From assembly GCF_015476235.1 (NCBI RefSeq), contig NZ_CP064338.1, positions 1,488,001 to 1,552,000 of the forward strand: 64,000 nucleotides of DNA. Direction: 5' to 3'. This stretch comes from Caldimonas thermodepolymerans (lineage in GTDB: Bacteria; Pseudomonadota; Gammaproteobacteria; Burkholderiales; Burkholderiaceae_C). Shown in pieces: positions 14,673 to 64,000 of the stretch. Position 1 is the stretch's first letter; each line of letters opens with the position of its first letter. A program made the position numbers and the translations under genes. Under the pieces are notes generated by a model. It had not been told where the DNA came from. It made no database searches and saw only the letters and a list, made by a program, of their open reading frames with translations.

Positions 14673-16076
14673 ATGAAGGTGTTCCGGCTCTTTCATCACC
14701 ACGTTGCCCTGTCCACGCTGTTGGAGCTGTTTGCCGACAGCCTGCTGTGTTTTCTGGCGGCGCTGTTCATCGCGTCCGCCCTGCACATGGTGCCCAACGG
14801 TGGTGATGCCCTGGCCCAGTCCGGCATGGTCTGGCTGGCCGGCGGGTTTGCCGCGGTGATGCTGCTGCTGTATGCGTCGGTCGGCCTGTATCGTCGCGGC
14901 ACCCGCTCGATGGGCCTGGGCACGCTGATCCAGCGCGCCATGCTCGCCATCGCCCTGGGGGCCTGCATCACCTACCTCCTGTTCGATTCGGTGGCCGGCG
15001 AGGCGTCTCCGGGCTACGTGGTCGGCCTGGCCATGGTGTACCTGCTGGTGGGCCTGGTCGTCGTGCGGGCCGTGATCTACATGGTGCAGAAGGCCGTCGG
15101 CGTGCCGCGCGTGCTGATCATCGGCACCGGCGAGGATGCCCAGGCCGTGGCGCGCGACCTGGCGACCCACAGCCGCATCGAACGCCAGGTCGTCGGCTTC
15201 TATCCGACCACCGAACGCACCGAAGGCATGCGCCCCGACCAGCGCGTGTTCTCGCGCGACCGTTCGATCGAGGAGATCGTTGCCGAGCACGACATCGACG
15301 AGATCATCGTCGCGGTGCGTGAGCAGCGCGGTGGCGCGCTGCCGATGGACCAGCTGCTGGCCTGCCGCATCGCCGGCACGCCGATCCTGGACCTGGCCGG
15401 CTTCTACGAACGCGCCCGTGCCGAAGTGCCCATCGACAGCCTCAAGGCCAGCTGGCTGATCTACAGCCAGGGCTTCGTGCAGGGGCCGGCGCGTCGCTTC
15501 GCCAAGCGCGCGTTCGACATCGTCACCTCGGCGACGCTGCTGCTGCTGACCTCGCCCATCATGCTGCTGACGGCGATCGCGATCCGCCTGGACAGCCCGG
15601 GACCGATCATCTACCGCCAGGAGCGTGTCGGCCTGGGCGGCCGCACCTTCATGTGCCTGAAGTTCCGCAGCATGACGGTCGACGCCGAAAAGGACGGCGT
15701 GGCGCGCTGGGCCTCGCAGAACGACTCGCGGGTCACGCGCGTGGGCGCCTTCATCCGCAAGACCCGCATCGACGAGTTGCCCCAGCTGCTGAGCGTGCTC
15801 AAGGGCGAAATGAGCATGGTCGGTCCGCGCCCTGAGCGTCCCAGCTTCGTGCAGCAGCTGCGCGAGCAGATCCCCTTCTACGACCTGCGTCACAGCGTCA
15901 AGCCGGGCGTGACGGGCTGGGCCCAGGTGCGCTACAGCTACGGCGCTTCGGTGGAGGACGCGCGCCGCAAGCACCAGTACGACTTGTACTACGTGAAGAA
16001 CAACTCGCTGTTCCTCGACATCCTGGTGCTGATCGAAACGGTCAGCGTGGTGCTGTTCCGCGAAGGGTCGCGCTGA
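14673..16076 (+). CDS. EPS-initiating undecaprenyl-phosphate sugar phosphotransferase (XrtA-type EpsB family)
   Basis: Predicted to start EPS repeat-unit synthesis by transferring a sugar-1-phosphate to undecaprenyl phosphate at the inner membrane. The 467 residues hold four or five N-terminal membrane helices (to about residue 135), a CoA-binding-like nucleotide fold (VLIIGTGEDAQAVARDL), a further helix and a C-terminal bacterial sugar transferase domain with KFRSMTVDAEKDG, TRIDELPQL and the signature MVGPRPERP. It resembles the TIGR03013 group found in exosortase-A genomes. The ATG at 14673 follows GGGAGGA. It is the first gene of the operon. Confidence 0.92.
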   Translation: MKVFRLFHHHVALSTLLELFADSLLCFLAALFIASALHMVPNGGDALAQSGMVWLAGGFAAVMLLLYASVGLYRRGTRSMGLGTLIQRAMLAIALGACITYLLFDSVAGEASPGYVVGLAMVYLLVGLVVVRAVIYMVQKAVGVPRVLIIGTGEDAQAVARDLATHSRIERQVVGFYPTTERTEGMRPDQRVFSRDRSIEEIVAEHDIDEIIVAVREQRGGALPMDQLLACRIAGTPILDLAGFYERARAEVPIDSLKASWLIYSQGFVQGPARRFAKRAFDIVTSATLLLLTSPIMLLTAIAIRLDSPGPIIYRQERVGLGGRTFMCLKFRSMTVDAEKDGVARWASQNDSRVTRVGAFIRKTRIDELPQLLSVLKGEMSMVGPRPERPSFVQQLREQIPFYDLRHSVKPGVTGWAQVRYSYGASVEDARRKHQYDLYYVKNNSLFLDILVLIETVSVVLFREGSR

Positions 16077-16136
16077 TCGCGACGCCCGCGTGACGGTTGC
16101 GACGTACAGGCTCCGGCTCAGAAAGGTTGCTTTCCC

Positions 16137-63600: not shown

Positions 63601-64000
63601 GCCGGTTGCGTCGCTTCGTCGGCCTGCAGCGGGGCCCCGCTGACGCAGGAATACAGCAGGCGCTGCGGCGCGCGCAGCGGCGCGCGCGACAGGGCCGCTT
63701 CCACGGCGGGCAGCGCGCCCTCCATCGAGGCGCTGTGGAAGGCGTGCGAGACGCGCAGCCGCGTGGTGCCGATCTCGCGTGACTCCAGCAGCACCGCCGT
63801 CGCGTCGATCGCCGCGTGGTCGCCGGCCAGCACCGTCAGGCCCGGGGCGTTGCAGCCGGCGATCTCCACGCCGGCCGGCAGCAGGGGCAGCAGGGTGTCG
63901 ACGCCGGCACGCGCGGCCAGCATCGCGCCGGGGGGCTGGGCGTACATCGCTGCGCCGCGCGCGATCACCGCGGCCATCGCATCCTCGACCGACAGCACGC
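54667..64000 (-). CDS. Hybrid PKS/NRPS with beta-aminating transaminase; 5' end outside window; 2-bp frameshift
   Basis: The visible part begins inside an acyltransferase (SHAFHS, malonyl-type) and runs: carrier (S321, GLDSLS), an Ala/Pro/Gln linker, class III aminotransferase (about 560-950; PLP lysine K788 in CTYGKVIGGG), condensation (SHLVFDGW), adenylation (pocket DILQLGMVW, glycine-like), carrier, condensation (VHHAVWDGW), adenylation and carrier. The AT-ACP-aminotransferase-C order is that of iturin/mycosubtilin synthases, which make beta-amino acyl chains. In the second adenylation domain an extra CG at 56131-56136 breaks the frame (LLVDADAA, then off-frame). The correct frame resumes with LLAAQPDSPPPAD and runs to the stop at 54667. 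No thioesterase. Confidence 0.85.
54793..56562 (-). repeat. Long direct repeat, copy 2 (A-PCP block of the PKS/NRPS)
   Basis: 1,770 bases, same orientation as copy 1 and 8.7 kb away. It carries the 2-base insertion (CGCGCG against CGCG) and, 50 bases from it, a cluster of four substitutions (ELAARPED in copy 1, GAAARPED here). Outside that spot only about three differences were seen. Confidence 0.92.

Follow-up and report, generated by a model that had tools for sequence, protein, structure and literature searches.

An XrtA-type exopolysaccharide locus of Caldimonas thermodepolymerans with an adjoining convergent synthase operon that may serve peptide decoration of the polysaccharide

The 64,000-nt stretch of DNA analyzed here (the window; positions 1488001-1552000 of the single 3,858,501-bp contig of the thermophile Caldimonas thermodepolymerans) carries on its plus strand an exopolysaccharide (EPS) locus of the type that accompanies exosortase A (XrtA) and on its minus strand an operon for two large synthases with nonribosomal peptide synthetase (NRPS) and polyketide synthase (PKS) domains. 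The same operon encodes a pair of alpha/beta-hydrolase-like proteins, hydrolase 1 (TIGR03100-like) and hydrolase 2 (TIGR03101-like). Families were called with NCBIfam profile models against their curated bit-score cut-offs, with Pfam models (PF numbers) used too, and pairs such as 75/168 give score and cut-off. Gene order lends good support to a functional link between the EPS genes and the synthases, and co-occurrence lends less. Synthase domains are written as A (adenylation), C (condensation), KS (ketosynthase), AT (acyltransferase), AMT (aminotransferase), ACP and PCP (acyl and peptidyl carrier proteins) and FAAL (fatty acyl-AMP ligase). The minus-strand operon comprises the following features, the duplicated module being listed without a strand.

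41176-41946, minus: DUF218 protein, ElyC-like (PF02698, 86 bits, cut-off 27.6)
41966-43267, minus: propeller 3, signal peptide by eye; shares 62-63% identity with propellers 1 and 2; 4-bp overlap with hydrolase 1
43264-44127, minus: hydrolase 1, TIGR03100-like (75/168 bits), with Cys112 at the nucleophile elbow and His252 (alignment, model)
44124-44924, minus: hydrolase 2, TIGR03101-like (99/203 bits), with Arg at the nucleophile position (alignment, model)
44941-45642, minus: 4'-phosphopantetheinyl transferase (PPTase), HetI-like; PF01648 and PF22624 over cut-off
45953-54484, minus: FAAL synthase, FAAL-ACP-C-A-PCP-C-A(Gly-like)-PCP by domain searches, ending ~24 residues past the PCP
46061-47893: duplicated module, copy 1, 98.4% identical to copy 2
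54793-56627: duplicated module, copy 2, 98.4% identical to copy 1, containing a frame change
54667-56058, minus: first synthase, 3' piece, A-domain end and PCP; opens at the A3 motif in a frame that differs from the neighboring piece
56055-64000, minus: first synthase, A(Pro-like)-ACP-KS-AT-ACP-AMT-C-A(Gly-like)-PCP-C-A(part); start at 67709, past the window end

From 67709, beyond the window, down to 41176 the order is two synthases, PPTase, hydrolase 2, hydrolase 1, propeller 3 and DUF218. With its pieces joined, the first synthase reads A-ACP-KS-AT-ACP-AMT-C-A-PCP-C-A-PCP, and a duplicated module of ~1.84 kb (98.4% identity over 1838 columns) lies near the ends of both synthases. The FAAL, PKS and NRPS enzymes named in the initial annotation of this DNA were thus recovered as domains, with the best FAAL model below its cut-off (497/600 bits). 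All four C domains of the 3.86-Mb genome (E<=1e-20) sit in this operon. No transporter was seen among the operon's called genes, and the absence of a thioesterase, for which no model was searched, is judged from the short tails after the PCPs and from short gaps. That annotation had also placed the two marker hydrolases of XrtA-type systems here, overlapping each other beside a PPTase, together with a paralog of the EPS-side propeller lipoproteins. The 4-bp overlap (43264-44127 and 44124-44924), the adjoining PPTase and the third propeller all stand; both hydrolases fall below the TIGR03100 and TIGR03101 cut-offs, hydrolase 2 still being the genome's best match to TIGR03101, and propeller 3, unlike propellers 1 and 2, showed no clear lipobox by eye.

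The plus strand carries the EPS locus (14673-36633), followed by two propeller lipoproteins up to 41038.

14673-16076, plus: EPS sugar transferase, TIGR03013 (501 bits, cut-off 393)
16137-16775, plus: EPS export protein (Wza-like), TIGR03027 (234 bits, cut-off 180)
16922-18499, plus: chain-length determinant, TIGR03007 (529 bits, cut-off 279)
18514-19455, plus: tyrosine autokinase, TIGR03018 (268 bits, cut-off 231)
19442-21106, plus: outer membrane protein, TIGR03016 (237 bits, cut-off 91)
21114-23261, plus: TIGR03015 ATPase (369 bits, cut-off 325; residues 1-268) fused to a wecB-like UDP-GlcNAc 2-epimerase domain (75/210 bits; residues 379-694)
23403-24914, plus: flippase (Wzx-like); polysaccharide flippase models, every one below cut-off
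24911-25702, plus: polysaccharide deacetylase; deacetylase models, every one below cut-off
25699-26874, plus: glycosyltransferase family 2; models below cut-off
26777-28075, plus: glycosyltransferase family 4; models below cut-off
28059-29249, plus: glycosyltransferase family 4 (TIGR03088, 198/409 bits)
29185-31095, plus: asparagine-synthetase-like (AsnB-like) amide ligase without the N-terminal glutaminase Cys (TIGR03108, 274/817 bits; N-terminus without Met-Cys)
31079-32254, plus: glycosyltransferase family 4; models below cut-off
32294-34189, plus: AsnB-like amidotransferase with N-terminal Cys, as seen at the N-terminus (TIGR03108, 653/817 bits; TIGR01536, 516 bits against 267)
34228-35283, plus: polysaccharide deacetylase; models below cut-off
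35299-36633, plus: membrane protein, EPS polymerase by position (one weak family match; position conserved in relatives)
36914-38473, plus: propeller lipoprotein 1, lipobox by eye; paralog of propeller 3
38786-41038, plus: propeller lipoprotein 2 with InlB-like repeats, lipobox by eye (PF18998)

The description of these genes as the families that accompany XrtA holds for six, which pass their cut-offs at 14673-23261 (TIGR03013, 03027, 03007, 03018, 03016 and 03015), but neither TIGR03108-like amidotransferase reaches the cut-off (274 and 653 against 817 bits), and no XrtA (TIGR03109) passes it in this genome. The sole TIGR03109 match (163 of 208 bits) lies at 1.03 Mb in a second EPS-type locus, L044, beside EpsF/EpsG-like genes and a B-type EpsI, and we rejected the presence of XrtA on these grounds. 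Five TIGR02595 (PEP-CTERM) matches over cut-off, one of them only together with its frame neighbors, fit a B-type exosortase equally well.

Since the plus-strand EPS arm ends at 41038 and the minus-strand operon runs convergently from 67709 to 41176, the two are neighbors and not a single operon. The adjacency described earlier is real; a merged operon was rejected. Past the synthase, outside the window, tviB-like, tviC-like and SGNH-like genes lie on the plus strand; the synthase operon is therefore bracketed by two polysaccharide gene groups and sits inside the EPS locus.

Hydrolases 1 and 2 were aligned from 56 places, which include only 26 of 48 places with a free ACP, chosen by hand. All 56 hydrolase 1 sequences have Cys at the elbow and share one invariant His; the elbow position of hydrolase 2 holds Arg in 52, Gly in three and a gap in one, with no Ser, Cys or Asp; because Arg replaces the nucleophile, hydrolase 2 is probably inactive. 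The two are encoded as a single-open reading frame (ORF) fusion in eight loci, and no signal peptide was seen by eye in either. AlphaFold2 models of hydrolases 1 and 2 (8 and 7 sequences; mean per-residue confidence, pLDDT, 77.8 and 80.5) have an alpha/beta-hydrolase-like order of strands and helices, and the hydrolase 1 model places Cys112 between a strand and a helix. A 100/100 branch of the hydrolase 1 tree separates 25 of 26 free-ACP rows from the rows with a synthase or no carrier; the remaining free-ACP row (L145) groups with the latter. The elbow motif is mostly CSG on the deep branch of the C. thermodepolymerans protein, versus CDA or CDG on the free-ACP branch. Changes of context along the tree number 2 for ACP, 4 for NRPS and 6 for no carrier (shuffled means 18.9, 14.9 and 11.9), the NRPS class including L139 and L191, whose synthase is near the pair and not directly upstream; for L188 no synthase was found in its 14.5-kb contig.

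What lies upstream of the pair was examined in an order-level sample of 300 genomes and a class-level sample of 370. A carrier was counted when it was encoded on the strand of hydrolase 2 and no more than 500 bp upstream of it, and a second variant of the rule also asks whether a synthase lies within 10 kb. Because the gene caller chose wrong strands in several high-GC stretches (L046, G007, L094, L111, L136-L138), the relatives' stretches were searched for domains in all six frames. TIGR03101 matched at E<=1e-18 in 57 of the 300 order-level genomes, passing the cut-off in 43. Of the 61 places listed, 59 were fetched with flanks of ~10 kb as far as the contigs reached, leaving out that of C. 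thermodepolymerans and one from the Lautropia genome G032. By the carrier rule alone these gave a free ACP at 45, a synthase PCP at one (L146) and no carrier at 13; the second variant gave 44 free ACPs (45 with the second piece of L137), one synthase PCP, one synthase nearby (L139) and 13 without either (12 if L137 is taken out). At class level, nine CSG-type hydrolase 1 sequences used as queries (E<=1e-22) matched 43 of 370 genomes, and among the best 20 of the 47 places listed (the C. thermodepolymerans place excluded) a synthase PCP lay directly upstream at ten, a free ACP at three and a synthase nearby at one, with none at six; ten of 20 is no general rate because these places were picked by likeness to the synthase type.

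Altogether the pair directly follows a carrier at 59 of 79 places, 48 with a free ACP and 11 with a synthase ending in a carrier. The PCP-to-hydrolase 2 gaps at these 11 places (7-146 bp) are too short for a thioesterase. Four Caldimonas loci have the carrier-then-pair order as well, with the PPTase in between in C. thermodepolymerans. As proposed earlier, the synthase thus occupies the place of the small ligase/carrier set of ordinary loci, its carrier standing before the pair as the free ACP does there. The idea that the pair always has an adjacent carrier was dropped, since none was present at 12 of 59 order-level and six of 20 class-level places; at five carrier-less places the stretch contains a free ACP at another position (L102, L123, L134, L135, L149), and at L197, L202, L206 and L207 one lies 3.5-6 kb upstream of the pair. 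Polysaccharide genes occur in 43 of 45 free-ACP stretches. Using window-derived models at 30 bits, we found polysaccharide markers in seven of 13 extended synthase-pair regions and a propeller alone in one more (G492b), as against none of six hand-picked control stretches (20-60 kb), save for the propeller in two that had been fetched for it. In G492a and G475 an A-PCP-KS-AT-ACP-AMT-C-A-PCP synthase stands ahead of the pair. An ~830-850-aa gene with glycoside-hydrolase-2 domains precedes the pair in L197 and L202, with the free ACP farther upstream, and L201 and L202 are places with two hydrolase 2-hydrolase 1 pairs on one contig, both in the same direction.

A-domain specificity was predicted from the ten usual pocket positions and the usual meaning of the codes. 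In C. thermodepolymerans three A domains carry DILQLGMVWK (Gly-like), one has the Pro-like code DVQFVAHVVK, and DAWQ(I/L)GFDDK was left unassigned; the A domain at 49388 differs in one residue between two readings. The terminal A domain facing the pair is Gly-like at nine of 15 synthase-pair places (C. thermodepolymerans, G008, G450, G492a, G512, G364b, G492b, G639 and G232), and the remaining terminal codes are three DIEH(V/I)TAV(S/T)K and one DFFSFGCVFK. Lautropia starter A domains read DALWLGGTFK, which we take to be Val-like. Among the ligases beside free ACPs, six of the seven read have DY(S/N)ATSM-RK and keep the Asp used by amino-acid-activating domains (L145 has DPHTQGLVAK); only L110 was checked against TIGR03098, with 753 bits (cut-off 592). 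The ligase-like proteins of G364a and G269 carry Ser at that position. Because of this amino-acid-like pocket in six of seven ligases, the small set would make an aminoacyl carrier, and its sequences argue for an aminoacyl more than a fatty-acyl product. Butirosin biosynthesis (BtrJ, BtrI, BtrK) is a precedent for an aminoacyl carrier, and TIGR03099 is LysA-like. The suggestion that the small set is the reduced form of an acyl-peptide pathway is neither supported nor refuted: besides these pockets, the hydrolase 1 tree consists of two deep groups and, being unrooted, gives no order of age.

Among nine Caldimonas genomes the EPS polymerase is present in four, and in all four the hydrolases and an AMT synthase lie beside it. 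In C. thermodepolymerans, C. mangrovi (G002) and a further Caldimonas genome (G008) the unit sits between isc genes and tviBC/hutG, whereas in C. tepidiphila (G007) it has different neighbors, so that it occupies two genomic sites. A FAAL synthase beside the locus was found in C. thermodepolymerans and G008 and not in the 80 kb fetched from G002 or the 60 kb from G007; FAAL is not conserved, and the earlier term lipopeptide is not supported in general. Scanning named genomes with the polymerase returned 12 loci: two in Caldimonas, two in Rhodocyclaceae (no hydrolase seen in the stretches examined), seven in Lautropia and one in another gammaproteobacterium. In the class-level sample, G639, a genome from another order of the class, combines a synthase A-ACP-KS-AT-ACP-C-A-PCP with the pair, the polymerase (416 bits), four propellers and a set of polysaccharide genes: AsnB, glycosyltransferases, tviB, tviC and genes like those for Wza, the chain-length determinant and the kinase. 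The Lautropia genomes G157 and G032 (the latter metagenome-assembled), both of those checked in this genus, encode two synthases away from the EPS locus, one A-PCP-KS-AT-ACP-AMT-C-A-PCP-C-PCP, accompanied by a PPTase gene, and the other ligase-ACP-C-A-PCP; a third genome of the genus, G300, carries AMT. An EPS locus with hydrolases and no adjoining synthase, the layout said in advance to show chance adjacency, was found in Lautropia, but does not show it, because both genomes examined encode the synthase elsewhere. That EPS genes and synthases belong together is upheld by the four Caldimonas genomes, G639 and the unlinked synthase of Lautropia. TIGR03099 passed its cut-off in one of 15 genomes searched (G232), in none of nine Caldimonas and none of three Lautropia.

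At order level a close AMT (E<=1e-150, a cut set after seeing the search results) is present in five of 300 genomes (C. thermodepolymerans, listed as G000, G032, G157, G300 and G269; nine at E<=1e-100) and a propeller (E<=1e-40) in five (G000, G032, G157, G300 and G320), four being common to both sets. Fisher p values of 7.5e-8 by genome and 9e-4 by genus flatter the link, because C. thermodepolymerans, as the chosen genome, was bound to have both, a single genus supplies three of the four shared genomes and the AMT cut is post hoc.

The locus resembles known XrtA EPS loci, exemplified in an excerpt of PMC3684757 by the XrtA/PEP-CTERM-associated psc1 of Rubrivivax gelatinosus, in that its core families for export, chain length and sugar transfer pass their cut-offs and in its AsnB, deacetylase and glycosyltransferase genes; it differs in having no XrtA or TIGR03099 over cut-off and an NRPS/PKS operon replacing the free ACP. 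With the TIGR03098-ACP-TIGR03099-TIGR03101-TIGR03100 set it shares the order carrier, hydrolase 2, hydrolase 1 and the Cys/Arg pattern, but its carrier is the end of a megasynthase and its hydrolases score below cut-off and belong to the other deep branch. The iturin/mycosubtilin synthases share the order KS-AT-ACP-AMT-C-A-PCP, found in MycA, and the AMT matches their structures (6kfm, 6kfu; E 5e-116); here, however, the AMT synthase loads through A(Pro-like) and not FAAL, ends soon after the PCP and not in the C-terminal thioesterase of that class, and lies within an EPS locus. Long-chain N-acyl amino acid synthases (stieleriacines, for example) are reportedly linked to PEP-CTERM/exosortase loci, a likeness in acyl-amino-acid chemistry tied to exosortase-type systems, although each is a single acyltransferase, unlike a carrier-bound assembly line. 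The Leptothrix sheath polysaccharide gave no parallel, having amino sugars and no peptide in the section of PMC5529543 available to us. Among the open-license PMC papers listed by our searches we saw none describing an NRPS in such EPS loci or giving the pair a function; the excerpts of PMC9850573 and PMC9860564 mention neither hydrolases nor acyl carriers, and that of PMC12906555 has nothing on EPS or NRPS.

The common thread is a carrier-bound aminoacyl or peptidyl thioester followed by the pair, mostly beside polysaccharide genes. We tentatively suggest, at a little under even confidence, that the EPS genes and synthase operon form one functional unit in which the pair transfers a peptide to a polysaccharide precursor. 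The first synthase would join a Pro-like starter to one malonyl unit, whose beta-amino group would come from the AMT, and then to Gly-like residues, and the FAAL synthase of C. thermodepolymerans and G008 would add a fatty-acyl dipeptide. Hydrolase 2 would be a dead partner of hydrolase 1, the two acting as a putative heterodimer; the hydrolase 1 Cys would take the peptidyl group, often Gly-ended, from the terminal carrier and pass it in the cytosol to an amino sugar that the deacetylases have freed within the undecaprenyl-linked repeat unit, after which the decorated unit would be flipped, polymerized and exported by the EPS gene products. Cytosolic transfer to the precursor would account for an operon without a transporter and for synthases that end after a carrier. 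In ordinary loci the group transferred in this way may be an amino acid carried by a free ACP.

Peptide transfer has to contend with several of our results. No carrier or synthase is present by rule at 18 of the 79 places, and at two more the synthase is near but not directly upstream; five of 13 extended regions (G450, G492a, G512, G499 and G364b) show no polysaccharide marker with the window-derived models; and no intact terminal A domain was found in G002 or G007. Six of seven Lautropia loci have propellers, DUF218 and both hydrolases with no synthase in ~21 kb, and the seventh (L049) has a propeller only. Leaving C. thermodepolymerans aside, one genus of 139 has both AMT and propeller (p 0.03 at 1e-150, 0.07 at 1e-100), while G320 has a propeller without a close AMT and G269 an AMT without a propeller. 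The frame change, at ~56.06 kb inside one copy of the duplicated module, may be either genuine or an assembly error; G008 has the matching synthase order with an unbroken A domain. Finally, the 50 Foldseek matches listed are mostly esterases and lipases, and they include the DcsB thioesterase for hydrolase 1 and a myristoyl-ACP thioesterase and the BotH epimerase for hydrolase 2.

The main rival is a separate small (lipo)peptide, with the pair acting as a type II thioesterase that frees a biofilm surfactant or signal whose genes are only inherited together with the EPS genes. In its favor, free lipopeptides are known to involve FAAL and AMT, mycosubtilin synthase is the closest Protein Data Bank match of the AMT, the hydrolase models resemble esterases and the DcsB thioesterase, and the five marker-less regions point the same way. 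We nevertheless consider this rather unlikely: the operon's called genes include no transporter, a like pair serves the free-ACP loci with their polysaccharide genes, and a Cys nucleophile with a dead partner fits transfer no worse than hydrolysis. Propellers encoded in both arms and the FAAL synthase of C. thermodepolymerans and G008 would also suit an acyl-peptide that tethers the polysaccharide, or secreted propellers, to the outer membrane, an improbable role given that no FAAL gene lies in the fetched stretches of G002 and G007, whose unit otherwise matches. The Cys-less AsnB-like enzyme could instead of hydrolase 1 join the peptide or an amine to a uronic acid (tviB/tviC). The glutaminase Cys is missing from one of the two AsnB-like proteins, here and in six relative loci, and uronate genes flank the locus; this route is distinctly improbable, because the G007 unit has neither AsnB gene in the 60 kb fetched. 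That a secondary-metabolite cluster adjoins the locus by chance or for regional reasons is very unlikely, and as a full account it was rejected: the rarity of close AMTs and a co-occurrence that, outside Caldimonas, depends on one genus speak for it, whereas the two genomic sites in Caldimonas, the recurrence in G639, the unlinked Lautropia synthase and the confinement of all C domains to this operon speak against it.

Peptide transfer may also extend beyond this locus. Even more cautiously, we propose that TIGR03101/TIGR03100-type pairs could be portable off-loading transferases that move aminoacyl or nonribosomal peptidyl groups from carriers onto polysaccharide precursors. In that case the window would carry, in its complete NRPS/PKS version, a route to peptide-decorated exopolysaccharides that is widespread and so far undescribed. 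If so, TIGR03100 and TIGR03101, families of unknown function, would gain a testable job, the carrier/ligase/decarboxylase set of XrtA-type loci would be accounted for, and nonribosomal peptides would join the known chemical decorations of bacterial polysaccharides. Genome mining would also call for caution, as synthase clusters without a thioesterase or exporter may yield surface material and not free compounds. The initial annotation was partly confirmed: the gene content held, and several statements about families and operons did not.

Three minor features of the locus were noted. The TIGR03015-wecB-like fusion is a single 715-aa ORF, whereas the match in G007 covers the ATPase part only. 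The Cys-less AsnB-like protein (29185-31095) lies near the Cys-bearing one. Lastly, G+C content is 73.2% in the synthase operon (41176-67709), against 69.6% in the EPS part and 67.6-69.4% in the flanks.

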